From: Sipunculus nudus
Lineage: Eukaryota > Annelida > Sipuncula > Golfingiida > Sipunculidae
DNA: 64,000 nt
Direction: 5' to 3'
Assembly (NCBI GenBank): GCA_026874595.1
Contig: CM049322.1
Coordinates: 60,392,886-60,456,885 of the forward strand
Shown here: positions 3,215-56,500 of the stretch, one piece after another
Numbering within the stretch: position 1 is the first letter of the stretch
Layout: the number at the start of each line of letters is the position of its first letter
Notes under the pieces: model-generated
Databases searched by the model: none
Told to the model about the DNA's origin: nothing
What the model saw: the letters and a program-made list of their open reading frames with translations, nothing else
Program-made: the position numbers and the translations under genes

Positions 3215-6200
3215 CTGGAGAATCAATGAAATATATTTCATGGGACTGATCTGCCAATCAAATAAAGACCATATGACTGATCTGCTAATCAAATGACAAG
3301 GTTTTAACAGCCTCTTACAAAATGTTTTTCCTTTATCGTAATGTTTAGTTCAAATTCTTTATTTTTAAATTAACAAAAATTCACTTTGGACATTCATGTC
3401 ATTTTAACATTTAACACTGTTATATGATGGTGAACTGTCAATATTATTAATTTTGCAAAACCTGTCTTATCACTTCTCTTAAACAGTTTTCTTAACATTC
3501 TGATTAGTCAGGCCCTCCGGGAGAGCTACACAATGAGAGAGGCTGTTCTCTTCAAGTTGTTATAGGTTTAAACACACTGGCAGATCTGAGTTGCATGATA
3601 TGATAGATTAAAGTTGTAATGTAACCTGTGTGGTACTTATGGTAGTGATATGACAGATTATAGTTGTAATGTGAACCATGTGGTACTTACAGCAGTAGCA
3701 TGACAGATTAGTTATATTGTGAACTGTGTGGTACTTACAGCAGTGGTATGACAGATTATAATTATACAGTGGAGAGCTGTTCATCTGAACACCGTTTAGC
3801 TGTAAAACCATTTATCAGTAATTGAACCTAGAGAACCAAAATAATGACCTTTTATCCTAAATTTCTGTGACAAAACTAAACCACCCATTCATTTAAGCAG
3901 TTAAATGTCTGAAAACTACCACCAGTCAGGTCCCCAAATTTACCTTTTTTCGTGCCTAGTACCGGGTTGTTCACACCGGTAAACCATCCGGCAATGACAG
4001 CATGTAGATTCTGTGCTGATAAAGTATGACTATGATACGCTCAAACTTTTACTCATCTGAGCAGTTTCACACTGGAAGCAAATCTGTTATATAACCTTAA
4101 TCGTTTATGTTGTTCATTCACAATTTAGCAACCCTTTACCTGGAAAACACCAACCACAGCACTCAAGTTTCATGTCAGATGGAGTTGGTGTCTCGCAAGC
4201 TCAAGCGACATGTCCTGTCACTTGAAAGCAAGTGCTTTTTTTCTTAGGCATTTGGAGATACTTGACTGAATTGCCTGTGGCCAGAGAGTTCAATGTAGTT
4301 GAAAATATAATATTAATATTTACTTTGATGAACGTTTGATTTGTTCAATTGGTGTGAGTAAACTTGCATTTATCCCATATTATTCCGTTCCGGATTCTTT
4401 TTTTGGTACTCTGAATGCTAACTGACACCGTGCCCCTATTTATAGTAGTAATATCAGGCTGATGGTATTGATGCCACGATGGTACTTAACACATGACCTT
4501 TCATCCGAGCGTTTGCTTAACCGAACAAAAACCTTGTCCCCTGCAATAATCGGATGAATGACCCTCCACTGTAACTGTACTGGTGAACCAGGTGGTACTT
4601 ACAGCAGCACTTTGGTATGACGGATTATAGTTGTATCAGGAACTGTGTGGTACTTACAGCAGTGTTACGACAGATTATAGTTGTATCAGGAACTGTGTGG
4701 TACTTACAGCAGCACTTTGGTATGACAAATTATAGTTGTATCAGGAACTGTGTGGTACTTGCGGCAGTGTTACGACAGATTATAGTTGTATCAGGAACTG
4801 TGTGTTACTTACAGCAGTGTTACGACAGATTATAGTTGTATCAGAAACTGTGTGGTACTTACAGCAGTGTTACGACAGATTATAGTTGTATCAGGAACTG
4901 TGTGGTACTTACAGCAGTGTTACGACAGATTATAGTTGTATCAGGAAATGTGTGGTACTTACAGCAGCACTTTAGTATGACAGATTATAGTTGTATCAGG
5001 AACTGTGTGGTACTTGCAGCAGTGTTACGACAGATTATAGTTGTATCAGGAACTGTGTGGTACTTACAGCAGTGTTACGACAGATTATAGTTGTATCAGG
5101 AACTGTGTGGTACTTACAGCAGTGTTACGACAGATTATAGTTGTATCAGGAACTGTGTGGTACTTACAGCAGCACTTTAGTATGACAGATTATAGTTGTA
5201 TCAGGAACTGTGTGGTACTTGCAGCAGTGTTACGACAGATTATAGTTGTATCAGGAACTGTGTGGTACTTACAGCAGTGTTACGACAGATTATAGTTGTA
5301 TCAGGAACTGTGTGGTACTTACAGCAGCACTTTAGTATGACAGATTATAGTTGTATCAGGAACTGTGTGGTACTTGCAGCAGTGTTACGACAGATTATAG
5401 TTGTATCAGGAACTGTGTGGTACTTACAGCAGTGTTACGACAGATTATAGTTGTATCAGGAACTGTGTGGTACTTACAGCAGCACTTTAGTATGACAGAT
5501 TATAGTTGTATCAGGAACTGTGTGGTACTTGCAGCAGTGTTACGACAGATTATAGTTGTATCAGGAACTGTGTGGTACGTACAGCAGTGTTACGACAGAT
5601 TATAGTTGTATCAGGAAATGTGTGGTACTTACAGCAGCACTTTGGTATGACAGATTATAGTTGTATCAGGAACTGTGTGGTACTTACAGCAGTGTTACGA
5701 CAGATTATAGTTGTATCAGGAACTGTGTGGTACTTACAGCAGTGTTACGACAGATTATAGTTGTATCAGGAACTGTGTGGTACTTACAGCAGTGTTACGA
5801 CAGATTATAGTTGTATCAGGAACTGTGTGGTACTTACAGCAGTGTTACGACAGATTATAGTTGTATCAGGAACTGTGTGGTACTTACAGCAGTGTTACGA
5901 CAGATTATAGTTGTATCAGGAACTGTGTGGTACTTACAGCAGTGTTACGACAGATTATAGTTGTATCAGGAACTGTGTGGTACTTACAGCAGTGTTACGA
6001 CAGATTATAGTTGTATCAGGAACTGTATGGTACTTACAGCAGCACTGTGGTATGACAGATTATAGTTGTATCAGGAACTGTGTGGTACTTACAGCAGTGT
6101 TACGACAGATTATAGTTGTATCAGGAACTGTGTGGTACTTACAGCAGTGTTACGACAGATTATAGTTGTATCAGGAACTGTGTGGTACTTACAGCAGTGT

Positions 6201-9200
6201 TACGACAGATTATAGTTGTATCAGGAACTGTGTGGTACTTACAGCAGTGTTACAACAGATTATAGTTGTATCAGGAACTGTGTGGTACTTACAGCAGTGT
6301 TCCAACAGATTATAGTTGTTTAATGACCTGTGGTACTTACGGCAGTGGTATGTTAATAACGACATCATTTAGCTCCATGTCTGTTTGCTTCATCTCACAC
6401 TCGATGTTCACATCACATCCCGTCCCTGTCTCATTCGGCCAACAGTTAACTGTAACCAGAAAACAGTTCAGTTAAAACACTTAAAAACTCCAATGCCTTT
6501 CCACAATAATTACCCACTACTTAAATTTTCTTTCAATTTTCTGATAACAAAGTCTTTAAAATCAACACTTTAACAGCCATAACAGGATAACATGAGAGTT
6601 GCGCTCCCAATATGCAAACCCACCATGGTGCAAGTTAATCCTTAAATAACTTTTATGAAATTCTATATTAGAGAGGTCACTAAAACATAGCATGTCCCCA
6701 TTTTCCTACAAGGTATCAGGAGTGAATGCATGAAAGGTACCAAGTCTGAAGCTTCAATGTTCTCTTTGTTCTGACATTGTATAGTGACTGTCACAATTCT
6801 ACACTGAATTTGATCCAAATAAATCACAGTTGGTAGCAAGTATGAAGTGAGCAGGACAACAGATAGATGTAGTTGGTAGCAAGTATGAAGTGAGCAGGAC
6901 AACAGATAGATGTACGGTGACAATGTGTAGACATATCATGGCACTGTGTAGATGTAATGTGACGTGTAGGCATAACATGACAATGTGTAGACATAATGTG
7001 ACAATGTGTGGACACAATGTGACAATGTGTGGACATAATGTGACAATGTGTGGACATAATGTGACAATGTGTGGACATAATGTGACAATGTGTGGACATA
7101 ACATGACAATGTGTGGACATAACGTGACAATGTGTGGACATAACGTAACAATGTGTGGACATAATGTGACAATGTGTGGACAAAATGTGACAATGTGTGG
7201 ACATAATGTGACAATGTGTGGACATAATGTGACAATGTGTGGACATAACATGACAATGTGTGGACATAATGTGACAATGTGTGGACATAATGTGACAATG
7301 TGTGGACATAGTGTAACAATGTGTAGACATAATGTGACAATGTGTGGACATAGTGTAACAATGTGTAGACATAATGTGACAATGTGTGGACATAGTGTGA
7401 CAATGTGTGGACATAGTGTGACAATGTGTGTACAAAGTGTGAAAATGTGTAGACTAGTAGTGGGCCGATCATCAAGTTTTTAGAAAGTCAGTCGGTTTGC
7501 TGCAACTTTCAAGCGCTCTAGGCAACTATTCTATTACATCATACTCATGATTGTTATTACCAGAATTTCTTTAAGTTATAGGCAAAAATTACTCTTCCAT
7601 TTTTAACAACATTCCGTGCTACATTTAATGAGTCTGTGTTCCCAAATAACCTCCGTATATAACTGAGTATGACACGGTAGATGAGAGAATGGAGGACTTA
7701 TTAAACCTCTGTGAACTGCTAGGGAGCTGCAGAATTAGTGCAGAGTCTTCTAACGAGATGTTCATTGCAAAATATGGGCGGTATGGCGTTTAAATGCTCC
7801 AGGTCTATGCCAATTTTGCAAGATTCTCCTATAAATAATCTCATCAGCTGAGGTCAGGTACCGCAGCCAAATGAGTAATTATATTTTTAGCTTTCAATTA
7901 CTTATTTTTTTATTTTTACCAAAAATTATGTGGGCCTGTAATTTTTCTGGCAGGCCTGTGACACCAGTATGCATGTCGGCAGTCATAATTGTTATAAAAT
8001 AAAAGTCCTGGTAGTGAAGTTGAAATGATATGCGGGAGTATTCATGAGAGCCAGCAAGTAGATGTCCTGGACTGTGGTTTAATTCTTGATTATTATAATT
8101 AATTAAAATGAAACTTTGAATAGCCTATCTTAGTGATAAAAGGAAAATATAAAAAAGGCAAGAACATCTTTTCGTCAGGTAGAATTTCTAAGACATGCGG
8201 GCTGGGTTAAGAGAGTACAGTTTCACAGATGATTGCACATTTCTTTATATTTGTCTGAACCGATTAATAATCAATCATCGATCGGTTTGCCCAAACCGAT
8301 GATTGATTATGAAAAAGGAACCGACTCCCACCACTAGTGTAGACATAACGTGATAATGTGTGGACATAACGTGGCAAATGTGCAGACAAAATGTGACAAT
8401 GTGTAGACATAGCGTGACAATGATTAGATGTAACGTGACTATGTGTAGACCTACTCGCTAGCGGCATCATGTCATCATCCTGTGTCTGGTACCTCCATTT
8501 GAGGATGCCTAAGTCTTGGTTCAGAGGGAACGGTTTAGAGGGGTTCTTAGGCTGAATGATGGACTGTGCCAAAAATGTTTTCTTGTCTACATTTGGATGT
8601 GTCTGCAATAACCAGAAAACAAACATTTAACATGTGTATACAAAATTCAAAGGGCTTATGCACAAGCAATGTGTTAAGCTGAGCTTGACACGGATGGAAC
8701 TGACATGGGTTACTCCAAACAAGGGACCTATTGGTCATGGCGCTCAGCTGTTATATATGATAAAAAAATATGATTTAGAAATGAGGCACATGCTGGTTTT
8801 ATGTGGTAATAAAAATAAGCTGTATTATGAGTTGTTGTTGTTTAGCTTATGTATGATTTTGATAGTACCTTTGGAGACAGGAAAGAGGATTAATTTCATT
8901 TATTTTATTAACAAATGGAGTGCGATTGTCACACAGATTTTGACTTGGCCATATAACTTATAAGCAGAACATATAATATAAGAGTTTAACTATTTATTAA
9001 AAAAATTACAAATATTGTCCCAAATATAATTTTTATTAAAAATAATAAGAGAATAGTATGATTTTTTCAAATAAAATATAACTGAAATGATTATTAAAAT
9101 AATATTAAAGAATATATTCATGAATGCATTCATTAATACATTTTGAAAGTATTTGCACTGGTATTCATATACTTTCATTTTTACCTGAATTCCCATTCTA

Positions 9201-12200
9201 TGAAAGAAATTTTATAATGGAGTACATATTCATATTCGTGTTTAAATACAATTGCAAAGTATTCACACCATGTCTGGTATTTATTCAGTTTTCACCAAAC
9301 AATGATGTTGAGAATCCAGAATAAACAAAATTCACACATTTAAATAATGATCATCAGTACCTCGTTTTATGGCTTTTATTTATATTTAAAAAAAATGTAA
9401 TATATTCATTTTGGACTAATTTCACATCAATGTACTAACTATAGACACAGTAGGAATCTAGATAATAATATTATCAACTGCATCTTTGTCTATCATTAAT
9501 TTCCTTCATATGATCCCTAATGATAAGTAATGAATAATATGATTTACTTTTTTATCATTAAAATTGAACTGAAAAATACCATAGGTGACTGCATTGTGTT
9601 ATTTGGAATACGTGACATTCTATCCATCGATACAAGATTCTTATATCATCGGTAACTGCAAGTTAATTTCCTGTTATTAATAACTAACAAATTCCTTTTC
9701 TATTTTTCTTTAATTTGTTATTAAAAACCAATGAAAATTGATTAATTTATTGTTTATTGTTACGTTGTTGGTTAAAACTACTAGATGAGTTGGGTTGGAC
9801 ACCTGGATCAACTGTGGCTGGCCATTATATAATAAGCTGCCTGGAGCCCCAGTTTATGCCTCGCCTCAAGCATGTATAATTTGCTGAAAATTCAACAAGG
9901 TCAACATACAGGTGACTCAAGAGTGGCTGGAGAGAGCCAGGGTCTGACATGGCCTCATAAAAACATAAATAATAGCTACAATTTTTGGCCAATTTCTTTC
10001 AGCTTTTTAAACTTAAAAGCTGAAATCTCTATGTGTGCATGATATGAAAATTATATCAACAGTGCTTACAGGAAACAAACATGCCATGGTCAAAGTTGGG
10101 CAAAATTTAAGGTACTAATTTTATATTTACACTAATAACTTATAAAATTTGAAAAATTCAGAACTAATTTTTGGTATTCAATTGAATCTTGATTAAATAA
10201 GGTTACATCCCTGACAAAAAATCTCTAACTTCAGCAATCCTCTTGTTAAGGGAGAAAATATATTTCTTGATTTTTTACAAAGTGCATTATGTTTGGGCCC
10301 ATAACTTAAAACAATTACTCAATACTGACATCATTTCTGGCATGTGAATAGAGAATGTATAGAAAAATATGTATATTATATATGATTAAAGTCAGATCAG
10401 TGGTTTTGATATTAGGCAGTCTTAAAGTGTAACAATGGGTTTTTAATGGAAAAATGAAGTTTTCATTAATATCTCGAAGGTATTAAGTCCTAGTGACCAA
10501 ATTCTTGGCATGGTAGGGGATTTTTGAGACATCTAATTGCATGCCAAATTTTAGGAACTGAGAGCTGAAGCTGGGGAGCTGAGCACTTGCAAACTGCATG
10601 ACACTAGCTTGATGTAAACAATATGTTACATGGTGCTTGAAAACTTGAATAAATCCACAGTTTTTGATCAACTGGTTTCAAATTTTTGGTGTTTACAGAC
10701 AAAATGCTAAAAAAAACATGCTGTGAAAATTAAACCCACAGTACTTACAGGAAAAAAACGTGCCATGGTCAAAGTCAGGCAAAATTTAAGGTACCAATTT
10801 TTTATTTTTGTCAATATTTTAAAAAATTTAAAAGATTTTGATCTAATTTTGGGTATACAGTGTAATTTTGATTAATTAAAGTTATATTACTGGAAAAAAA
10901 GTCCATAGCTTCAACATGTTTTGTGTTAAGTGATCAAATATCTTGCCTGATTTTTTTACAAAATGCATTATGTTTTCGCCCATAATTTTTTTAAATTATA
11001 TAATACAGAAATAATTTCTAGCATGTACATAGGAACTATATAGAGGAATATTTATGGTAAATATGAGGAAAAACAGATGAGTGGTTTTGATATTAGGCAG
11101 TCCTGAAGTGTGAAAATAGGTTTTTAATAAAAAATTGAGGTTTTTCCTTAATTTCTCAAAGGAATGAAGTCGCAAAGACCCAGTTTTTGGCTTGGTAGGA
11201 GATCTTGGGAAAATCTAACATTATGCCAAATTTTGGATTCCTAGGTCTTACGGTTTCAAAACGTGCCACATCTACGGACGGACGGACGGACGACGGACAA
11301 TGGACCACGACTATAGCTCAGATGACTTATAGTCAGCTGAGCTAAAAAACAGTGGTTGCTACATGAAGAACTCTTCAAGTAACAGACAGGGGCTGTTCCA
11401 ATTTAATCCTTGACAAGGTAACACCAAGTTGAGAGGATAGAGCACAGCCAGTGGTGACTTCCCTAAGTCAAGGTGAACAGATATAGCACAGTTAGTGGAT
11501 ACCTACATTAGTCGAAGTAAATGGATAGAGCACAGTCAGTGGTGACCTAAATTAGTCTAAGATGAATGGATAGAGCAGTCAGAGGTGACCTACATTAGTC
11601 AAGGTGAATGGATAGAGCAGTCAGTGGTGACCATCATGAGTCAAGGTGAATGGATAGAGCACAGTCAGTGGTGACCTACATTAGTCAAGGTGAATGGATA
11701 GAGCACAGTAAGCGGTGACCTACATTAGTCAAGGTGAATGGATATAGAGCACAGTCAGTGGTGACCTACATTAGTCAAGGTGAATGGATAGAGCACAGTC
11801 AGTGGTGACCATCATTATTCAAGGTGAATGGATAGAGCACAGTCAGTGGTGACCTTCATTATTCAAGGTGAATGGATATAGAGCACAGTCAGTGGTGACC
11901 TACATTAGTCAAGGTGAATGGATAGAGCACAGTCAGTGGTGACCTATATTAGTCAAGGTGAATGGATATAGAGCACAGTCAGTGGTGACCTTCATTAGTC
12001 AAGGTGAATGGATATAGAGCACAGTCAGTGGTGACCTACATTATTCAAGGTGAATGGATAAAGCACAGTCAGTGGTGACCTACATTATTCAAGGTGAATG
12101 GATAGAGCACAGTCAGTGGTGACCTACATTAGTCAAGGTGAATGGATAGAGCACAGTCAGTGGTGACCTACATTATTCAAGGTGAACGGATAGAGCACAG

Positions 12201-15200
12201 TCAGTGGTGACCTACATTAGTCAAGGTGAATGGATAGAGCACAGTCAGTGGTGACCTACATTAGTCAAGGTGAATGGATATAGAGCACAGTCAGTGGTGA
12301 CCTATATTAGTCAAGGTGAATGGATATAGAGCCCAGTCAGTGGTGACCTACATTAGTCAAGGTGAATGGATATAGAGCACAGTCAGTGGTGACCTACATA
12401 AGTCAAGGTGAATGGATATAGAGCACAGTCAGTGGTGACCTACATAAGTCAAGGTGAATGGATAGAGCACAGTCAGTGGTGACCTACATTATTCAAGGTG
12501 AATGGATATAGAGCACAGTCAGTGGTGACCTAAATTAGTCAAGGTGAATGGATATAGAGCACAGTCAGTGGTGACCTACATTATTCAAGGTGAATGGATA
12601 GAGCACAGTCAGTGGTGACCTACATTAGTCAAGGTGAATGGATATAGAGCACAGTCAGTGGTGACCTACATTAGTCAAGGTGAATGGATAGAGCACAGTC
12701 AGTGGTGACCTACATTAGTCAAGGTGAATGGATAGAGCACAGTCAGTGGTGACCTACATTAGTCAAGGTGAATGGATAGAGCACAGTCAGTGGTGACCTA
12801 CATTAGTCAAGGTGAATGGATAGAGCACAGTCAGTGGTGACCTACATTAGTCAAGGTGAATGGATATAGAGCACAGTCAGTGGTGACCTACATTAGTCAA
12901 GGTGAATGGATATAGAGCACAGTCATAGGTGACCTACATTAGTCAAGGTGAATGGATATAGAGCACAGTCAGTGGTGACCTACATTAGTCAAGGTGAATG
13001 GATAGAGCACAGTCAGTGGTGACCTACATTAGTCAAGGTGAATGGATAGAGCACAGTCAGTGGTGACCTATATTAGTCAAGGTGAATGGATATAGAGCAC
13101 AGTCAGTGGTGACCTATATTAGTCAAGGTGAATGGATAGAGCACAGTCAGTGGTGACCTACATTAGTCAAGGTGAATGGATATAGAGCACAGTCAGTGGT
13201 GACCTTCATTAGTCAAGGTGAATGGATATAGAGCACAGTCAGTGGTGACCTACATTAGTCAAGGTGAATGGATATAGAGCACAGTCAGTGGTGACCTTCA
13301 TTAGTCAAGGTGAATGGATAGAGCACAGTCAGTGGTGACCTACATTAGTCAAGGTGAATGGATAGAGCACAGTCAGTGGTGACCTACATTATTCAAGGTG
13401 AATGGATATAGAGCACAGTCAGTGGTGACCTACATAAGTCAAGGTGAATGGATATAGAGCACAGTCAGTGGTGACCTACATAAGTCAAGGTGAATGGATA
13501 GAGCACAGTCAGTGGTGACCTACATTATTCAAGGTGAATGGATATAGAGCACAGTCAGTGGTGACCTACATTAGTCAAGGTGAATGGATATAGAGCACAG
13601 TCAGTGGTGACCTACATTATTCAAGGTGAATGGATAGAGCACAGTCAGTGGTGACCTACATTAGTCAAGGTGAATGGATATAGAGCACAGTCAGTGGTGA
13701 CCTACATTAGTCAAGGTGAATGGATAGAGCACAGTCAGTGGTGACCTACATTAGTCAAGGTGAATTGATAGAGCACAGTCAGTGATGACCTACATTAGTC
13801 AAGGTGAATGGATAGAGCACAGTCAGTGGTGACCTACATTAGTCAAGGTGAATGGATAGAGCACAGTCAGTGGTGACCTACATTAGTCAAGGTGAATGGA
13901 TATAGAGCACAGTCAGTGGTGACCTACATTAGTCAAGGTGAATGGATATAGAGCACAGTCATAGGTGACCTACATTAGTCAAGGTGAATGGATATAGAGC
14001 ACAGTCAGTGGTGACCTATATTAGTCAAGGTGAATGGATAGAGCACAGTCAGTGGTGACCTACATTAGTCAAGGTGAATGGATAGAGCACAGTCAGTGGT
14101 GACCTATATTAGTCAAGGTGAATGGATATAGAGCACAGTCAGTGGTGACCTACATTAGTCAAGGTGAATGGATATAGAGCACAGTCATAGGTGACCTACA
14201 TTAGTCAAGGTGAATGGATATAGAGCACAGTCAGTGGTGACCTATATTAGTCAAGGTGAATGGATAGAGCACAGTCAGTGGTGACCTACATTAGTCAAGG
14301 TGAATGGATAGAGCACAGTCAGTGGTGACCTATATTAGTCAAGGTGAATGGATATAGAGCACAGTCAGTGGTGACCTATATTAGTCAAGGTGAATGGATA
14401 GAGCACAGTCAGTGGTGACCTACATTAGTCAAGGTGAATGGATATAGAGCACAGTCAGTGGTGACCTTCATTAGTCAAGGTGAATGGATATAGAGCACAG
14501 TCAGTGGTGACCTTCAATAGTCAAGGTGAATGGATATAGAGCACAGTCAGTGGTGACCTTCATTAGTCAAGGTGAATGGATAGAGCACAGTCAGTGGTGA
14601 CCTACATTAGTCAAGGTGAATGGATAGAGCACAGTCAGTGGTGACCTACATTAGTCAAGGTGAATGTATATAGAGCACAGTCAGTGGTGACCTATATTAG
14701 TCAAGGTGAATGGATAGAGCACAGTCAGTGGTGACCTACATTAGTCAAGGTGAATGGATATAGAGCACAGTCAGTGGTGACCTACATTAGTCAAGGTGAA
14801 TGGATATAGAGCACAGTCAGTGGTGACCTTCATTAGTCAAGGTGAATGGATAGAGCACAGTCAGTGGTGACCTACATTAGTCAAGGTGAATGGATAGAGC
14901 ACAGTCAGTGGTGACCTACATTAGTCAAGGTGAATGGATATAGAGCACAGTCAGTGGTGACCTATATTAGTCAAGGTGAATGGATAGAGCACAGTCAGTG
15001 GTGACCTACATTAGTCAAGGTGAATGGATATAGAGCACAGTCAGTGGTGACCTTCATTAGTCAAGGTGAATGGATATAGAGCACAGTCAGTGGTGACCTA
15101 CATTAGTCAAGGTGAATGGATATAGAGCACAGTCAGTGGTGACCTTCATTAGTCAAGGTAAATGGATAGAGCACAGTCAGTGGTGACCTACATTAGTCAA

Positions 15201-42200: not shown

Positions 42201-45200
42201 CAAACTGCATAACACTAGCTTGATGTTAACAATATGTTACATGGTGCTTGAAAACTTGATTAAAATCTACAGTTTTTGATCAACTGGTTTCAAATTTTTG
42301 GTGTTAACAGTTGAAATGCTAACAAAAACATGCTGTGAAAATTAAATCCACAGTACTTACAGGAAAAAAACGTGCCATGGTCAAAGTTGGGCAAAATTTA
42401 AGGTACCAATTTTTTATTTTTATTAATATTTTAAAAAATTTAAAAGATTTTCATCTAATTTTGGGTATACGATTTAATTTTGATTATTTAAAGTTATATT
42501 ACTGGAAAAAAGGTCCATAGCATTAACATTTTTTGTGTTAAGTGATCAAATATCTTTTCTGAATTTTTTACAAAATGCATTATGTTTAGGCCCATAACTT
42601 TTTTAAATTAAATAATACAGACATAATTTCTGGCATGTACATAGGAACTATATAAACAGGTGATAAAAAAATAATAATGATAATAACCTCAAGCTGTAGG
42701 TAATGTCAATAAACAGGTGATAAAAAAATAATGATAATAAAAACCTCAAGCTGTAGGTTATGTCAATAAACAGGTGATAAAAAAATAAAAATAATAATAA
42801 CCTCAAGCTGTATGTAATGTCAATAAACAGGTGATAAAAAAATAATGATAATAACCTCAAGCTGTAGGTTATGTCAATAAATAGGTGATAAAAAAATAAT
42901 GATAATAACCTCAAGCTGTAGGTAATGTCAATAAACAGGTGATAAAAAAATAATAATAATAATAACCTCAAGCTGTAGGTAATGTCAATAAACAGGTGAT
43001 AAAAAAATAATGATAATAACCTCAAGCTGTAGGTAATGTCAATAAACAGGTGATTAAAAAAATAATGATAATAACCTCAAGCTGTAGGTAATGTCAATAA
43101 ACAGGTGATAAAATCTTACTGGTGATACAAAAATCAACTTTTCCTGCAGAGATAATATCTTCCAATACAAGATGAATCATCACCTTGGTGCAGTGTAGGA
43201 TGGTTTGACCGGTTCTGAAGGTGTCGACTCAATGATTGGTGCACCGCTCCTACTTCCACCTCCCATGCTAGAAGACCCGCTCCCAAACCCTCCGAACCCG
43301 GGTGCCCTGGTGCCCTTCTTGGCTGCATCTCGTCTGGCCTGCTCCAGCTCCTTGGCTCTTCTCTTCATGTTCTCCCGTGCTTCACGCTCTTGAGTCTGTA
43401 ATGAACAGTCATTGATACTGTAAGAATATACGGTTTGGGGCAGGCCCTGGCCTGTGAAAACCCTAGCGACTCACGCAAGATTGACTGAACTCTCATTGGT
43501 CAGCTCATTAATATTCATGATAAACAAACCCTCACTAGTGAACATCTCACCATCCCAGAAATGAACTGACCAATGAAGAGCCCGTTCAATCTAACATGAG
43601 GCGCTAGAGTCCGTCACAATCACAATCAGTCATAGCCCTGCATGGTGACAGCTACAACAGGAAAACCTGACAAATGTCTGTATCAGCTGTTGAATATGTG
43701 TGGTCAGAGACCAAAATATGAGTTGATTATGTCTGTCTAAATCACTGCAGTAAGTTTTATGTGTGAGTTAAGTTCATGAAATTCTGTCCTAAGGTAGGGA
43801 ATAAACAGTTTTATACTGCTTATCACTGAGGACACTCCTGTTTCTTACCTTTACTCTTTATTATTACAGAGGTATAATCTATAATCATATGATTTCCAGA
43901 GCTTGTGGCTGTGCAATATGATACTATAGAAGTGGTTTGGTTAGCGGGTTTTTTTTTTCATGCTTTTTGCGGGAGCGTGATTTGCGCTAAATTAAGAACC
44001 CACATTATTTCAAACACCCTAGACATGTCTGTTTAGTTTATTTTTTTTCTGTCAAGTGCCGACACTATTGAGAGATACAAGTAAAGAGTATTGGCAAATT
44101 GAATGGACATTGATGTGTAATATAGATCGTTTATGTTTAATGGGGCACTGAGAAATTAAACCACACTTTTTTATATACAACGTTTATTTTGGATATACAA
44201 AAGACTTGTGTTTTCATCCTAATTTTGGTATTCTCCCCAGTGGCGCTTGGCAGGTTGTGATCTGACGTGATCTTTCTCCACTTGGATGACTGCAGAATTC
44301 TTGCCCGACACAGTTTACGCGAGTCTGGGAATCCCTCCTTGTGGGGTCGCTGCGTTAAAGACTTCTTCAATCAGAATGTTAGGGTAGTCATGTTGCATAT
44401 GTCAAACAGTGTGTCTGGGTGCAGTACCATAGCAAAAGTAATTTGTCCTGGTAATTACGTATTGTTTACCCCGTGCAATCATGGTACTCACTAGCCTGTA
44501 GCCAGGTAGCATGTACTCAGAAACCTAAAGCTTGTTAGGTGGAAGGTAGGTTGCTTCACAAACCTATCTTTTTTGTAATTGTTTAAATATTCTGATAATT
44601 TGATACAAATTGATAAATCCAATACATACTGATTTGCGCAAAAATTCAAACTGCGCTAATGCTGTAAAATGGAAAAAGCACAAAAAGTCAGACATGCCAA
44701 ATTAACCACTTCCACAGTACCATCCTTCAAGGACAGTCATTGTACCTGGCCTTACCTGTCTGTTATTTAATTAATGTACCTGGCCATACCCGTCTGTTAT
44801 TTAATTATTGTACCCCGCCTCACCTGTCTGTTATTTAATTATTGTATTCAGCCTCACCTGTCTGTTATTTGATTATTGTAACCACCCTCACTTGTCAGTT
44901 ATTTAATTATTGTACCCAGTCTCATCTGTCTTTTATTTAATTATTGTTCTCATCCTCACCTGTCTGTTATTTTATTATGTAGCCGGCCTTACCTGTCTGC
45001 TATTTTATTATTGTACCTGGTCTTACCTGTTTGTTATTTAATTATTATACCTTACCTAACCTGTCTGTTATTTAATTATTGTACCTGTCCTTACCCAGTT
45101 TGGTTTATTATTGTACATGGCCTTACCTGTCTGACTGCATCATACACCTTTTCTTCATGAGAGTCCATCTCTGTGAATGTTCGGATTTGAGCAAGGTTGA

Positions 45201-48200
45201 CATTTTCTCGGTAGCCAAGGGCAACAATTTCATCAAACGCAAAGATGAGAGGGAAAGCCTGGTCTGTGATTTCTGATTCTTCTATTGATTTACAATACTC
45301 AGGAATCTGCAAATACAGAGTCATCTACAGCTCACAGCCACACACACACATATCAGCAAATACAGTCATCTACAGCTCACAGCCACACACACACAAATCA
45401 ACATATACAGAGTCATCTACAGCTCACAGCCACACACACACAAATCAACATATACAGAGTCATCTACAGCTCACAGCCACACACGCACATATCAGCAAAT
45501 ACAAAAAGTCATCTACAGCTCACAGCCACACACGCACAGATCAGCAAATACAGAGTCATCTACAGCTCACAACCACACACGCAAAGATCAGCAAATACAG
45601 AGTCATCTACAGCTCACAGCCACACACACACAGATCAACATATACAGAGTCATCTACAGCTCACAGCCACACACGCACAGATCAGCAAATACAGAGTCAT
45701 CTACAGCTCACAACCACACACGCACAGATCAGCAAATACAGAGTCATCTACAGCTCACAGCCACACACGCACAGATCAGCAAATACAGAGTCATCTACAG
45801 CTCACAGCCACACACACACAGATCAGCAAATACAGAGTCATCTACAGCTCACAGCCACACACACACAGATCAGCAAATACAGAGTCATCTACAGCTCACA
45901 ACCACACACGCAAAGATCAGCAAATACAGAGTCATCTACAGCTCACAGCCACACACGCAAAGATCAGCAAATACAGAGTCATCTACAGCTCACAACCACA
46001 CACGCAAAGATCAGCAAATACAAATAGTCATCTACATTTCACAGCCACACACGCACAAATCAACATATACAGAGTCATCTACAGCTCACAGCCACACACG
46101 CACAAATCAACATATACAGAGTCATCTACAGCTCACAGCCACACACACAAAGATTAGCATATACAGAGTCATCTACATTTCACAGCCAAACACACACAGA
46201 TCAGCAAATACAGAGTCATCTACAGCTCACAGCCACACACACACAGATCAACATATACAGAGTCATCTACAGCTCACAGCCACACATGCACAAATCAACA
46301 TATACAGAGTCATCTACAGCTCACAGCCACACACGCACAGATCAGCAAATACAAATAGTCATCTACATTTCACAGCCACACACGCACAGATCAGCAAATA
46401 CAGTTATCTACATTTCACAGCCACACACACTCAGATCAGCAAATACAGTCATCTACAGCTCACAGCCACACACACACAGATTAGCATATGCAGAGTCATC
46501 TACAGCTCACAGCCACACACACACAGATCAGCAAATACAGTCATCTACAGCTCACAGCCACACACACACAGATCAGCAAATACAGAGTCATCTACATTTC
46601 ACAGCCACACACGCACAAATCAACATATACAGAGTCATCTACAGCTCACAGCCACACACACACAGATCAGCAAATACAGAGTCATCTACATTTCACAGCC
46701 ACACGCACAAATCAACATATACAGAGTCATCTACAGCTCACAGCCACACACGCACAGATCAGCAAATACAGAGTCATCTACAGCTCACAGCCACACACAC
46801 ACAGATCAGCAAATACAGAGTCATCTACATTTCACAGCCACACACGCACAGATCAGCAAATACAGAGTAATCTACATTTCACAGCCACACACGCAAAGAT
46901 CAGCAAATACAGAGTCATCTACATTTCACAGCCACACACGCACAGATCAGCAAATACAGAGTCATCTACAGCTCACAGCCACACACACACATATCAGCAA
47001 ATACAGAGTCATCTACATTTCGCAGCCACACACGCACAAATCAACATATACAGAGTCATCTACAGCTCACAGCCACACACGCACAGATCAGCAAATACAA
47101 ATAGTCATCTACATTTCACAGCCACACACGCACAAATCAGCATATACAGAGTCATCTACAGCTCACAGCCACACATGCACAGATCAGCAAATACAAACAG
47201 TCATCTACATTTCACAGCCACACACGCACAGATCAGCAAATAGAGTCATCTACATTTCACAGCCACACACAAACAGATCAGCAAATACAGAGTCATCTAC
47301 ATTTCACAGCCACACACACTCAGATGAGCAAATACAGAGTCATCTACAGCTCACAGCCACACACACACAGATCAGCAAATACAAAAAGTCATCTACAGCT
47401 CACAGCCACACACTTACAGATTAGCATATACAGTCATCTACAGCTCACAGCCACACACACACATATCAGCAAATACAGAGTCATCTACATTTCACAGCCA
47501 CACACGCACAAATCAGCATATACAGAGTCATCTACAGCTCACAGCCACACACGCACAGATCAGCAAATACAAATAGTCATCTACATTTCACAGCCACACA
47601 TGCACAGATCAGCAAATACAGAGTCATCTACATTTCACAGCCACACACACACAGATCAGCAAATACAGTCATCTACATTTCACAGCCACACACACTCAGA
47701 TCAGCAAATACAAAAAGTCATCAACAGCTCACAGCCACACACACACAGATTAGCATATACAGAGGCATCTACAGCTCACAACCACACACACACAGATCAG
47801 CAAATACAGAGTCATCTACAGCTCACAGCCACACACGCACAGATCAGCAAATACAAATAGTCATCTACATTTCACAGCCACACACGCACAGATCAGCAAA
47901 TACAGAGTCATCTACAGCTCACAGCCACACACGCACAGATCAGCAAATACAGAGTCATCTACAGCTCAAAACCACACACGCACATATCAGCAAATACAGA
48001 GTCATGTACAGCTCACAGCCACACACGCACAGATCTGCAAATACAAATAGTCATCTACATTTCACAGCCACACACGCACAGATTAGCAAATACAGTCATC
48101 TGCAGCTCACAGCCACACACGCACAGATCTGCAAATACAGAGTCATCTACAGCTCACAGCCACACACACACAGATCAGCAAATACAAATAGTCATCTACA

Positions 48201-50477
48201 TTTCACAGCCACACACGCACAGATCAGCAAATACAAATAGTCATCTACATTTCACAGCCACACACGCACAGATCAGCAGAGTAATCTACAGCTCACAACC
48301 ACACACGCACAGATCAGCAAATACAAATAGTCATCTACATTTCACAGCCACACAAGCACAGATCAGCAGAGTCATCTACAGCTCACAGCCACACACGCAC
48401 AGATCTGCAAATACAAATAGTCATCTACATTTCACAGCCACACACACACAGATCAGCAAATACAGTCATCTGCAGCTCACAGCCACACACGCACAGATCT
48501 GCAAATACAAATAGTCATCTACATTTCACAGCCACACACACACAGATCAGCAAATACAAATAGTCATCTACATTTCACAGCCACACACGCACAGATCAGC
48601 AGAGTCATCTACAGCTCACAACCACACACACACAGATCAGCAAATACAGAGTCATCTACAGCTCAAAACCACACACGCACAGATCAGCAAATACAGAGTC
48701 ATCTACAGCTCACAACCACACACTCACAGTTCAGCAAATACAGAGTCATCTACAGCTCAAAACCACACATGCACAGATCAGCAAATACAGAGTCATCTAC
48801 AGCTCACAACCACACACTCACAGGTCAGCAAATACAGAGTCATCTACAGCTCACAGCCACACACGCACTGATCAGCAAATACAAATAGTCATCTACAGCT
48901 CAGTCACACATGCACAGTTTAAATTATAAACAAATCTTTATATTCAGTTAACTAAAACATTCAAATGTCTCCTCCCACAAAGCAGTTATCTGTTTAAGTC
49001 AACCTTTCTTTCTTTTGGGGAATAATTCTTGGCTCATGTAAAATTCTATGGCAATCTTCATGTCTACATGAAACAGATGTTTTCTGTTAAATATTTCAGC
49101 AGTGACGATGGTGTCATATTAATAGTCAATTGTTTCTTACAAACTTTTAATGGATATTTGAACACAGGTTTTAAAGTGGTACTTAACATATACACAAATA
49201 ACCGCTAACCCAAACAGATGATGGAAAGAACTAAAAGTCATAAACCAGAAGGAAACTGGTTTCTCACCACCCTGGCAAAGAGCCTCAGTGTTTCCAGATC
49301 CTCGAGGATATTGGACGCCTTTGTCGTGATGAGGAGCACGTATAATTTCTCTAATGGTTGGTACACATAGCGGACACTCTCTGTCTCAACAAACGTGTGT
49401 TGTTTCCCTCCACCTGATGTCATCAGTTTAGGAAATGCCGCAAGAAGACCCTCGATACGAGCCCGGTTCATCTCTACAAACTGGCGGGAAACGATGGCTG
49501 CAAAGAAAATAATTACAAAATATCAACTTTTTTTGTTGGGGGGGGGGGGGGACATAGGTTTAAATGCAGCTTAAACTGCCCTAGCAACGATAGTTTTACT
49601 CTTATGGTATGTGCATTCTGTGTCAGAGATTGCAGACTGCAAATTTATATCCAAGGTGTCATCTTAGGCTAACCAAGCTGGTTCTGTACACATTAACATG
49701 CTGCCTGTTATTGCACCTGAACTAATCACACAGCCTGCCATCTCCTTCTAAAACACTGATGTAACCACCCACAATGATAATTAGGTAGACTGGGGCAAGG
49801 AATGCTATCTGAAAAACCTACTCATCTGTTTTAGTAATGTTTGAAAATGCAGCAGTAGAAGGAGTTTAAGCTCGTCAAGCAGCTACAGGTTGCTGTGGTC
49901 AAGTTCTCAGCCCTGTGTGCTCCTTAAGCATGTTCTCTGAGCCAACAGATGCGGTGCCACACCAAGCCAAGCAAAGAGCTGCGAGAGACTGCCACCGTAC
50001 ATCCCAAACCGGTGAATGCAGCATGGGCCACCATTTGTTACTGTTACAATCAGACCCTTACCTTTAAGTGTATTAACTCAGTTGTCAGACTCAGACAGGT
50101 GCCCTCATTAACAGGTCACACCTCAAACAGTTTTATATGATCTTGGCCTGCATTACACCTTCACAAAGCAGAACAATTTACATACTCTGTAGCCTGGAGT
50201 CTGGTAATTTCCAATATGATGCACAACGAGTCCACAAAGGTGATAAAATATTATATAAAGATACCATCAACTTTTCTAGTTATTAGAAAAGTATATGTTA
50301 AGAAGAATGTATAGAGATTCTCAGAAATCATGAATGGAAACAATAATGGGGGAAGTAAGGTTGATATCATCATATCTACCTAGATAACACTGGCCTTTCC
50401 ACTGCATTAGTGTTTCTATGATTCTATTAATAACAAATTATTCGGGCTGGCATGATGAATCAATATATAATATCAAC

Positions 50478-50534
<57 letters not shown>

Positions 50535-53500
50535 TATATATATATAAATTGATACTGGTGGGCCAATATGATGATCGTTGAGACTGCTAAGAATCGATCT
50601 CATAAAATGAAGCCAAATTTAATCAAGAAATCCCTAAAATTGACGGAGTTTCTTATTTTACATTGTGTGTTTGATTAAAATGTTTAATGAATATGGAAAT
50701 GACTATTAATATTGGTATCAATGCAAATGAAATGCACCGATACACCAGGCCTTTCACCCAAATTTAATTAAGAAATCCCTAAAATTGACGGAGTTTCTTA
50801 TTTTACATTGTGTGTTTGATTAAAATGTTTAATGAATATGGAAATGACTATTAATATTGGTATCAATGCAAATGAAATGCACCGATACACCAGGCCTTTC
50901 AGACTTTCTGTGTTGCATTAGTGAAAAACAGCCACAAGCATGAACAGGCCACCCACCGGCCAGTTACAAAGGACATTTTTTCCAATTACATTATTGTTAT
51001 CACAACCAATCTTATCTTCGAAATATCTGCTTACCCACACCCACATTCAATCCCAATGGTTACAGTTGCATTATATTTTGGCTTTGGTATTCTACGCTTT
51101 GGTATCATCGCTTATAAAAACTCTCCGAAAATTCTCCACAGATTCTCCAGCTCTCCGCGGATTCAAAGACCACCATGAAAGAGGCCTTCTGTAATCTAAG
51201 GAAGTGGACTGGGGGAGGGTGGCCACCTTTGATGATATCACAGTTTCCTATATCATAAGATTACTCTTGGAATTATCCCTTGATATTCAATAAGAACTTT
51301 TTCCAGAAAGTATGTGGTTTTAATATTTTTTTTTGACAAACATTTTGAAAAAAAGTAGGAATTAGGTCCAAAAAGTAGGAATAAGTAGGACAGGTGTTGA
51401 AAAAGTAGGAAAAGTAGGATGAGTGGGTGGCCTGCATGAAGTGACAATGAAAATGTCAAATTATAACAGGCACAGTGAAATAAAATCATGGTAGTTTACT
51501 GTATATGACTAATGGAGGGTGCGGCAATCCCCTGCCATGTTTTGTTCAGAGGGGGCATTAATGTCCACCATCTTGCTGTTCAAGAGGCTTGGCATAGGCT
51601 AGAATTCCTCGACAACCCATTTTTTTTTTATTTCTCTTATTTAATATATATTCTGTGTAACATGTTAACTGCTTAAGTGATGCAAAGAGAAGTGTCTTAA
51701 CTTCCTGTATTATCACCCACTGAGGCCAACCACAGTCCTGAACAACAATGAAATAATTTATGTGCATGACTATTTAACTTTACTACTGGTAAATCTCTTT
51801 CCAAAACAATACCGATATATTTTTTTTCTATGATGGACTGCCAAAACTGAGCCAATATTAAAATCAATATAAACTGAGGTCCCATGGGTCTCGATGCTCA
51901 GCTGAATTGGTCTGAATTTTTCAAAATATGGATCATGTGATCAGTTTGAACTTTGAAGCCAACCTGTCTACCCAAACTGGAGTTATCATCCATAAACTAA
52001 ATTTTTGAATGGATTGGCCCTGTGACCTTGACCTTTGACCCCAAAATCAACAGGAAATTTCCCCTTTTGGCAGATACGCCACATGTGGAAGACGGAAGGT
52101 TTGAGATAAAAAATTTGGATTAAAATGCATCCACAATCTTTCTCAAGTAGTGGGTCCTGTGACATTGACCTCATGACCCCAAAATCAACAGTTCTTACTT
52201 TAGTAGTTGGCCATATATAAGGAAAGTTTTAAACCAATATTTCAATCCAAACTGGTTTAATCATTATGAAACTAACATGTGGATAGATGGCCCCCGTGAC
52301 CTTGACTTTAAACCCCAAAATCCATGTTTCTTCCACTATTGGCAGGTTAGAAATATCTGGAAGATGGAAGGTTTGGGATGAAAAGTTTGGCTCACAATAC
52401 ATCCACTATCTTTTTAAAGAAGTGGGTACTGTGACCTTGACCTCATTCTTAGATTGTTGTCATTTTATAGTTGAAAAAAAAAGAAAAATATTCCTGAAAA
52501 TAACAAAAAAAAATACAGGTGGCCCCACCACTTTTTGGGAACTGACAAAACAAGTCATAATCAATATTCAAGGCAAGATTCATGACAATTCATGCAATAA
52601 TTATCAAGATATTGGAGGTTTTATATAATATTTTTGATTATTCTGGGGGGTACCTTCAAGCCCCATATAGCTCGGAAGATATAGGTCACAGTGACCTAAT
52701 TTCAGGTTTCAAAGGAGATTTTTAATGACCTCCTTGGAAGTTTACTAAGAAATTTCTACAACCAGCAGTTACGATTTGTGCCCTGCTAACGGACAGCCCA
52801 CGGACAAAGCACCATTCCTATACCTCAGTTGACTTACAGTCAGCTGAGCTAAAAATGAGTAAAATACAGGTGGCGCCACCAGTTTTTGTGAACTGACAAA
52901 ACAAGTCATGTTCAATATTCAAGGCAAGATCCATTGGAATCTGTGCTTTGATTATCAAGATACTGGAGGTTTTGTATCAAATTTTTAATCATGGGGGGGG
53001 GGCCTACTTATGAGCCCCATATCTGGGAGGATATAGGGGGCAGAGACCTAATTTCAGGATCCCAAGGAGATTTTTTATAAACCTACCTGGATATTCAGTT
53101 ACAAGTTTCAAGGGTTAGCGTTTAGGATTCGTGCCCTGGCCCAGCCAGCCGGACGATGGACAAAGCGCAACTCCTATACCTCAGTTGACTTTGTCAGCCA
53201 AGCTAAAAAACTTCTGAAGTTCCGATTGCTAGTCCTATAAATTATCTGAACACTACAAAGTAAAACCCAGCTTTCAGGTCAAATTTGGTATCACCAAATG
53301 ATGTTTCACTATTTAGTGCTCAAGGTGGTTGGGTAACAGTAATACAGTCATATAAAGTTTGTCCAACAAGTACCTCAACATTTAAAATGGTCTGTCCTAG
53401 TGAGTTGGCCATATATATAAAGCATTAATGTCTGACTGATAATCTGTACTCACCTTTGCCAGATTTATTGCACACAGCAGCTGCCAGCAACACCTGAAAA

Positions 53501-56500
53501 CAAAAATAAATCACATGACACAACTGGTGAAACACGAGGTGAGGCACACAAGCAAAACCTGTAAACATAAACAAATCACATGTCACACCTGGTGAAAAAC
53601 GAGGTGAGATCAGGCTTCTGTGTTACAGATTATGATATATATTACATATTCTGCAATCAATATTAACCAATTTATAACTGCTATGATGAAGAGATCACAA
53701 TAAGGAATCCATGAAACCTATCATAGAAATAACATAACATCTCTTGGTGAAAGTATCATGTCTAGCTCAGCTGACTGGAATTGAGAATCCAACATGGTGT
53801 CCTTAACCACTCAAACTTTTTCATCATTTTTATATATTCTTGACATCTGTCTCATTTATGGACAGATGATACAAAATACACAGGAATAATTAGTACAAGC
53901 CCAACACTACATTCAAGTACGGCATAATATAATGATATCACTGCTTGTGTCTAACAGGTGCCAATTATCAGGTAAAATATTTGGCCAAATTATTACAAAG
54001 TTGTGCCAAATGAACATTATAATCAAAGTTAAAGGTGCCCATTCACCTGCCCTTTGAAAAAGAATTTGTGTGCTTTCTGGCTTCCTCTGTGTATATATAA
54101 ATAATCTAAGGGTAATTCTGTTTATGAAAATTTCTTATGAAGCCTACGTAAAGGAAGTGTGAACTTGTTTATCAACAACATGTTTCAAAGCACAGCAATG
54201 TTGACCAGACATGGGGTAATAGTAATAAGTAATAGTAATAGACTATTACAGCTTTTTCCATGTAATAGTAATAGTAATAGACTCAAAAATTTGAGCAGTA
54301 ATAGTAATAGTAATAGAAACAGAAGGCAAAGTAATAGAGTAATACATATAACATTCTATTACTTCCTGTGAGCCCCTTTATCATGAAGCATATCAGCAAA
54401 TAATGCTGAACAGACTCAGTTCTTGTCCAGTGATTGCCCAGGATGTGTCTGTTGTTGAGGCAAGCATGGGCCAGCTGCCATACTGATGGTGACCACTGGT
54501 GCTAATTACATAAGAGTACTGGACAGAGTAGGTCACAGCCAAATAAGTTACCTGGCACAATCTGACCTTTGATTAGTAAACCATGGATAAACAGAGGCAT
54601 GTTTGATGTTAAGAGACAGATAAATAGTATATTATTATTGTGATATGTACATCTTATCTCATATCCATCAATCAATATGCATATTCTGAAATGTACCTAG
54701 ATTTTTTTTCACAAGCCATTTTGCATTTCAATCATACGGATTGCAATAACACACATTCAAGAAAAATTTAATATGGAACCAGATACAGTGCAGACCCAAA
54801 ATGTTCATGATAAGCTTATGGTGTTTTTCACTAACCATAATGTATTGAAGCCTGCAATGCTATAAACTTATACCAGTACTACAATCACTTGGATAAAGTC
54901 ATACTGCAGGCACATGTATTATCTAGTTAACTTATATACTTATTCTTTTAAAACTATTCTTTTAATACTTGTCTGTTATTTCATAGTATCCATTTTTGCA
55001 GACCTTCATTCAGTATCTCAAATTATGTTATAAAATTTATATTTTGAAAATTAAATGAACAATTTTTTTACAATATTAATTTAATTGATTATATAATAGA
55101 AGAATATAAGTGACAGTTAATATTTTATTATTTATTATCTGAAATTTTGATATCAAATAATAAGATTCTGTTATGTACAAAATTTATAGTACAAGATTGT
55201 TAAATACCAAATTTATTGTGAAAGTGATTTAAATAATATATTATTTGTTTTGTAAAATTGGCGTAAGTTTAAATCACTCTTCATATTCCTAAATTATCCT
55301 GTGCTGATTTTGCTGCAATCAAGAAGGGCATGCCTTAAGAATAAAAGCCATGCATGTTACCATTACTGTGAAGTTTACCACCTCTCTGTTCACTCTCAAG
55401 ATGTACTATGTGATTGAATAAAACAAGGCATCACATCCAAATGAACATATACACCTGAGCAGGGTTGGCAAGTTTTAGGCAGGAAGGTTTTAACCATAGG
55501 TTATAACCTGGTTAAAACTGCCCTGCCTAAAACAGGTTTTAGGCATGTTTTAGGCATCAAACGTGCCTAAAACCTATATTTGTTTAAATTTTGACTTAAA
55601 GATCTATAAAACTACCAAACTGGCTTGGGTTACACAGTGACAAGGCTTTGCTTGGCTTCTGGGAGGTTTCAGGTATAAGTAATACATGATTTATGTTGGC
55701 TGGCATCATGTAGTCTTCAAAGAGTCTGTGTAGGTTTCTTGAGCATGAAACCTTGTTTGTGTGGCACTTAGTTTCAATGGCCAAGGTAATGTCTTTATAA
55801 GAAACTTTTGGTTTGCTGATGAGTGCTCTGCTACCTGGAATGATGCAATAGAGCCTCCAGTATGCCTTTTGTAAGGCAGGGAACCAGAGGCAGAGGCCAT
55901 GCGTGATTAGACCAACTAATTACTATTTATCAGGATGATGGGGTCATTAGACCCAATGGTCATGAGTCCCAATGCTGTGTCTTAGTAGATGTTTATGTGA
56001 ACTTTCATACATACTTTCCCTTGCCCTGAAAACTGTTCCCGAGTCAAACTTTTTACTGCCTGATGCAGTCAGGGCCCCTGACCAAGACATGTAGGTTTCT
56101 CAGCCCTTTAGATTGAACACAGCCCCAAAGTGATTATGCATATTCTGTGGTTTGCAGCATATTCACTGCAATATATTTTCACATTTTTCAGTTTTATACT
56201 TATTACAGTGTTTCATGAGGATTCCATTTTCACAGTCTCATCATACAGTTGACAGAGCATATCCATCATTATAAAGACCATAAGTATGTACACAAAATCT
56301 TAAAATTTGACAAAGGATGACCTAGCTAGGAGAATAAACATCCAGTTGATGTTCTTGTTCATTATCAGATAATGTAAGATATTATCATATTTTTAGTTTA
56401 TGGCTAGCATAAAAGATCTGTTATAATTTAAAAGATCAATCTTTTTGCTCTTTGCTATATGAAGCTACAGGCATACAAAATATACACCAGTATAAGGGAC

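Follow-up and report, generated by a model that had tools for sequence, protein, structure and literature searches.

The window, a stretch of 64,000 nucleotides from Sipunculus nudus (assembly GCA_026874595.1, contig CM049322.1, positions 60,392,886 to 60,456,885 of the forward strand), contains the gene for coatomer subunit delta (ARCN1) on its minus strand, and several introns of this gene hold tandem arrays that repeat the adjoining splice junction together with a few exon bases. The gene was identified by homology to bovine delta-COP, which matches the concatenated protein sequence from exons 4-6 plus 8-12 with E=1.9e-164 and exon 3 alone with E=5.7e-36. Exon edges were set by this homology and then by exact junctions; protein homology is what supports the exon-side junctions. 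In the numbering of the original prediction, an earlier reading of the same DNA, exons 2-11 occupy 3010-53493 and comprise exon 2 (53493-53454), exon 3 (49497-49268), exon 4 (45306-45127), exon 5 (43395-43184), exon 6 (31992-31901), exon 7 (31312-31243), exon 8 (20668-20503), exon 9 (8602-8455), exon 10 (6449-6341), and exon 11 (3214-3010). The acceptor of exon 12, an exon situated about 3.6 kb beyond the window, was placed as well; exon 1 was not located among the edges so placed, which cover exons 2-11 and the exon 12 acceptor. The weight matrices for splice sites and the splice motifs used throughout are those of general knowledge.

Arrays were called with Tandem Repeats Finder (TRF), and the overlap with an exon is the number of base pairs of the TRF array past the exon edge. 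Four arrays, all described for the minus strand, span a junction and include 7-9 exon bases each. (i) The exon 10 donor array (3596-6347) has 34 units of 50 bp at 4619-6347 and outlying copies at 3596-3760; it extends to 6347, 7 bp into the exon that ends at 6341, and its units contain CACTGC(T/C) followed across the junction by GTAAGTACCACA. (ii) The exon 4 donor array (44739-45133) has 11.7 units of 34 bp that contain CAGACAG followed by GTAAGG, with 7 exon bases (array to 45133, exon end at 45127). Among 11 of these units, exon bases 1-7 are identical in 82-91% and base 8 in none, so that the similarity stops sharply. (iii) The exon 8 acceptor array (20660-20860) has 12.6 units of 16 bp, TATGTTTCAG followed by TGTTTATAT, and 9 exon bases (array from 20660, exon start at 20668), which, with the exception of base 5, are identical in 64-91% of 11 units. 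(iv) The exon 2 acceptor array (53486-53608) consists of two 65-bp copies with 8 exon bases by TRF (exon start at 53493). The original prediction had claimed that several arrays of this gene copy the adjoining junction, exon bases included, and that a two-copy form is present at the exon 2 acceptor; both claims hold at these junctions. The same claim stands only in part for the exon 4 acceptor, where an array of 77 units of 47 bp (45305-48917) reaches 2 bp into the exon (start at 45306). Because AG is present at the homologous place in only 1 of 71 units, this array is better described as abutting the junction than as copying it. At the exon 9 donor, an array of 21-bp units (6917-8450, in blocks at 8337-8450 and 6917-7454) begins at about intron base +5, as had been stated, and includes 0 exon bases. 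The arrays at exon 9 and exon 10 are each divided into blocks by intervening sequence, as if broken by later insertions.

In the spanning arrays, the splice dinucleotide is present in most of the units: 10 of 11 at the exon 4 donor, 10 of 11 at exon 8, the single additional copy (1/1) at exon 2, and 5 of 6 at the exon 10 donor, where a strict scan recovered 6 of about 34 units. Many copies also equal or exceed the score of the real splice site (5/10 at exon 8 and 5/5 at exon 10, with 2/10 at the exon 4 donor and 0/1 at exon 2), and decoy sites are thus often as strong as the real site in two of the four spanning arrays. With decoys of equal strength, the real site would have to be picked by its position. 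The exon bases inside the units belong to coding sequence that is common, in whole or in part, with bovine delta-COP, namely IPLP, AVR followed by Q or E, and VH followed by I or M; we take the exon 2 bases to be conserved with the bovine protein as well. Since the shared bases sit in conserved coding sequence, the exon is older than the array and the copying proceeded from exon to array. The units differ between introns, and matches within arrays range from 78 to 92%. Because the units differ by intron and the divergence differs by array, the arrays look like the products of separate events.

Tandem repeats that span exon-intron boundaries are known from amphioxus, where they go by the name of mirages (PMC3087553). 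The same report describes units of 10-72 bp in the Adh3 mirage, further cases in two globin genes (BflGb6 and BflGb9) and other loci, regular splicing by reverse transcription-PCR, and somatic instability, and it proposes that mirages contribute to intron gain (PMC3087553). Troponin C and PGBD5 were added to the amphioxus mirage genes in a second report (PMC3902484). The original prediction knew of no named system of this kind, and that statement falls, because mirages are such a system. The ARCN1 arrays resemble those of amphioxus in consisting of minisatellite-like repeats across 5' or 3' exon-intron boundaries in more than one gene, and in that many but not all units carry AG or GT, the amphioxus units being 10-160 bp in length. 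The units of the four spanning arrays cross the boundary by 7-9 exon bases, as compared with 2 for the exon 4 acceptor, and their AG/GT content stands against the 1/71 found there. The present case differs in that one gene has four spanning arrays together with abutting ones, and in that the frequency of such arrays was sampled. Regular splicing and length instability are features of the amphioxus mirages, whereas the arrays described here are known from the sequence of one assembly. The ARCN1 arrays belong to this already known kind, which is present at several further loci of the S. nudus genome.

Intron 7 of human factor VII provides a further parallel; it is reported to contain 37-bp repeats, with splicing normally confined to the donor that lies farthest upstream (PMC6627357). 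It differs in being one donor array in one intron for which the use of the copies is reported. Intron gain by tandem genomic duplication, as described for potato RdRp (PMC4974935), is similar in tying duplication to splice signals, but it yields a new intron, whereas here the introns already exist. In human segmental duplications, internal tandem repeats at exon-intron boundaries change exon/intron structure (PMC2812944). These repeats are likewise minisatellite units at gene boundaries but are reported to be variable between paralogs and about half coding. A limited search of the open-access literature found no molluscan example of arrays that span a splice junction, and no junction case was found in the available parts of reports on an earthworm metallothionein (PMC12783039) or on abalone TSSK1-like, which has a 27-bp intron minisatellite (PMC6905558).

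The arrays are probably best regarded as mirages that arose as ordinary tandem duplications straddling a junction, were tolerated, and then expanded. The founding duplication would have happened to straddle the splice junction, so that slippage, template switching, or unequal exchange would have duplicated a segment of 16-65 bp that included the edge of the intron and a small number of exon bases. The additional copy would lie on the intron side and be harmless because, we propose, splicing continues to rely on the copy next to the exon. Further unequal exchange would then enlarge the array, and the terminal unit would be held by selection on the exon.

In a sample of other genes, splice sites carry tandem copies at a rate close to that of other intron positions. 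The sample comprised 159 exons and their flanks from CCT, adaptin, kinase, and Ras-family genes, in which 253 of 318 splice sites were accepted and 65 were dropped for a weak splice score or for their distance from the match; the controls were 22,373 evaluations of random intron positions. At score 16, tandem copies were present at 9 of the 253 junctions (3.6%), as compared with 6.4% of random positions that lie within repeats (lower-tail P=0.04). Hits in which the splice site is the terminal unit numbered 8 of 253, as compared with 2.7% of controls, a ratio of 1.17 (0.51-2.27). The acceptor of the adaptin locus L013 was called at a place within its array; if this locus is read at a later acceptor, the count becomes 9 of 253 and the ratio 1.31 (0.60-2.45) by arithmetic adjustment. 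Over all cut-offs the ratio of junctions to controls is 1.2-1.5, and the intervals extend from 0.3 up to 3.3. Four of the eight terminal hits (L014, L101, L116, and L133) are weak cases. These values replace those of a control run without the low-complexity filter (4/124 sites and 157/1920 controls at score 16). The original prediction had called for a comparison of splice sites with random intron positions in every gene; run on these 253 sites, it gives 9 as compared with 6.4% for any tandem copy and 8-9 as compared with 2.7% for terminal units.

Clear multicopy arrays with exon bases were found at 3 of the 253 sites: a kinase donor (L064) followed by seven more copies, spaced exactly 65 bp apart, that include 19 exon bases, the adaptin acceptor L013 with exon sequence inside a 64-bp unit, and a CCT acceptor (L002) with 12 exon bases. 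More remote, partial copies are present at two further donors, at +161 in L023 and at +116 in L101. Among the sampled loci, the 7 within 5 Mb of a chromosome end have an array content of 11%, as compared with about 2.4% in the remaining 125, although by rank correlation the effect is not significant. One sampled locus (L001, 3838-4794) has a 33-bp array with units 98% matching downstream of its last exon.

Several results from ARCN1 itself and from motif searches weigh against ordinary duplication as the whole account. Of the 22 intronic arrays in ARCN1, 5 come within 12 bp of an exon edge or extend past it, as compared with 0.37 expected from a placement test that omitted intron 1 (P=5e-5, post hoc), which makes the gene an outlier even relative to the array load it carries. 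When splice sites were tested for terminal units at score 16, 7 of the 21 (the acceptors of exons 2, 4, 6, and 11 and the donors of exons 4, 9, and 10) are hits, as compared with 3.9% of intron positions (P about 1e-5); the exon 8 acceptor is uncounted because it matches inward too. At score 24, the values are 4 of 21 and 2.6% (P=0.002). Plain repeat coverage shows no excess, with 8 of 21 splice sites in ARCN1 covered as compared with 45% of its random intron positions (P=0.81). ARCN1 was chosen after the pattern had been noticed, and its P values are therefore post hoc; with 30,000 genes assumed and at the observed rates, 0.08-0.3 genes with at least seven hits at 21 sites would be expected. 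Array edges are thus clustered on the splice sites of this gene beyond chance, though post hoc. Its many junction arrays are probably explained by the fact that arrays occupy 41% of ARCN1 as compared with 2.75% of the sampled exon neighborhoods.

The motif searches also belong among these results. Arrays with a triple CAGGTAAGT donor motif were found at 18 loci, as compared with 4 for the reversed motif, among the matches listed and over the stretch common to both lists. Loci with a single CAGGTAAGT numbered 74 in 9.1 Mb (a count that is slightly too high), as compared with 29 in 5.9 Mb for the reversed motif, and normalization by these single-motif counts leaves a 2.7-fold excess of donor-motif arrays (P=0.044). 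The acceptor motif TTTTACAGG has no excess, with 9 loci as compared with 6 for its reverse among the matches listed (P=0.30, unnormalized). The loci were read from the best 100 of 256, 133, and 213 matches and from a fourth set of 38 matches, which fell below that limit. Exon ends were then predicted with a coding score trained on the sampled exons. The donor-array set comprised 17 of the 18 listed donor loci, one locus of unclear extent being omitted, and three arrays out of the single-motif list; the 20 single-motif controls were the first of 71 listed loci classed as single by 600-bp clustering. In this first sorting, 10 of the 20 donor arrays had a predicted exon end at their first unit, as compared with 4 of 20 singles at cut-off 18 (P=0.10) or 3 of 20 at cut-off 20 (P=0.04). 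Four of the 20 controls, however, sit in arrays (L164, L165, and L166 with 53-bp units and L168 with 30-bp units), and after a re-sorting of array and single loci, made after the data had been seen, the counts are 11 of 22 arrays and 3 of 16 or 2 of 16 singles (P=0.09 or 0.04). In L166 (C1:1,793,632, minus strand), the exon end is followed by 53-bp units, each with 42 bases from the exon and 11 from the intron. L165 and L164, 9 and 16 kb downstream (to C1:1,777,139), consist of this unit as well, so that it was seen at three points over 16.5 kb, in three separate pieces. A Pfam search with nine of the 10 array exons and with L145 gave plausible matches for four of the nine exons: TPR_12 (4.4e-9), above its cut-off, and ABC_membrane (3.4e-5), Xan_ur_permease (1.1e-4), and PH (0.018), below theirs.

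These results bear on the possibility that a process aimed at transcribed splice junctions, such as R-loop ends, polymerase pausing at exon edges, or co-transcriptional nicking, raises the rate of tandem duplication there. The clustering of array edges in ARCN1, the number of donor-motif arrays, and the predicted exon ends at their first units speak for it, but ARCN1 was a selected gene, the ratios in the sampled genes have intervals that include 1, and acceptor-motif arrays are hardly more numerous than their reversed counterparts. Furthermore, the share of true donors among the CAGGTAAGT singles is uncertain, and with a share of 40% the count of 10 of 20 from the first sorting would not stand out (P=0.24). 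A process of this kind is a tentative and rather doubtful explanation. Of the original suggestion that splice-site DNA is amplified, the clustering of edges in ARCN1 stands and the donor excess is borderline, whereas the sampled rate is near that of the controls (ratio 1.2-1.3, confidence interval 0.5-2.5) and acceptors give no excess. Ordinary minisatellite birth at a tolerated place most likely accounts for most of the pattern, on which a moderate preference for splice junctions, of at most about 2.5- to 3-fold, may be superimposed.

It is improbable that selection retains the arrays, with spare splice sites or alternative isoforms being advantageous and junction arrays outlasting others. 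GT or AG has been kept in most of the copies found in three arrays, and a number of copies at exon 8, exon 10, and the exon 4 donor equal or exceed the real site, both of which speak for it. The largest junction array, however, has 70 of 71 units with no AG at the homologous place, and the offsets have no preference for multiples of three beyond that given by unit length. That the arrays derive from dispersed mobile elements or satellite DNA inserted next to exons is very unlikely; ARCN1 does contain a dispersed 180-bp tandem element, but the junction units hold coding bases of the adjoining exon and differ from array to array. The genome search with the junction units was swamped by this 180-mer and is uninformative on the other units. 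Inflation or creation of the arrays by assembly error can be given hardly any weight because, although the copy numbers rest on one assembly, the units have diverged and vary from intron to intron, the contigs reach the size of chromosomes, and the same structure is present at unrelated loci.

Other arrays in ARCN1 lie near splice sites or far from them. A 43-bp array (32013-32244) ends 20 bp upstream of exon 6, a 33-bp array (30798-31182) starts 60 bp into intron 7, and a 67-bp array (1-2952) starts about 57 bp past the exon 11 donor and runs about 1.4 kb beyond the window, all on the minus strand; the original prediction did not list these three among its junction arrays. In intron 5, one unit of 54-57 bp forms two separate arrays (33694-34679 and 42652-43113), the second of which begins 70 bp past the exon 5 donor. 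Intron 8 contains the longest array of the gene, 5.1 kb of 44-bp units (11435-16564) located kilobases from any splice site, and also the tandem repeat of about 180 bp (16706-20085). Copies of the latter are found, among the matches listed, on many other large contigs (C1, C2, C5, C10, and C15 among them), and by its distribution it is a dispersed tandem element. Elsewhere in the assembly, nine matches to the Cpn60 family on small contigs (C61, C62, C66, C72, C73, C75, C99, and two on C89) share the same score and a 547-residue open frame, which suggests that they are sequence from a bacterial symbiont or contaminant.

In this lineage, splice donors in particular could be recurrent founders of minisatellites through duplication linked to transcription or splicing, and mirages would then be a numerous class throughout the genome that continually supplies decoy sites, shifted exon edges, and new introns; we consider this broader proposal unlikely. 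With tandem copies at 3.6% of the sampled sites and clear arrays at three of the 253, the genome may hold thousands of junction arrays, an extrapolation from an assumed number of introns. If so, it would be a test bed for how the spliceosome chooses among many similar copies of a site and for the model that derives new introns and exon edges from tandem duplication.

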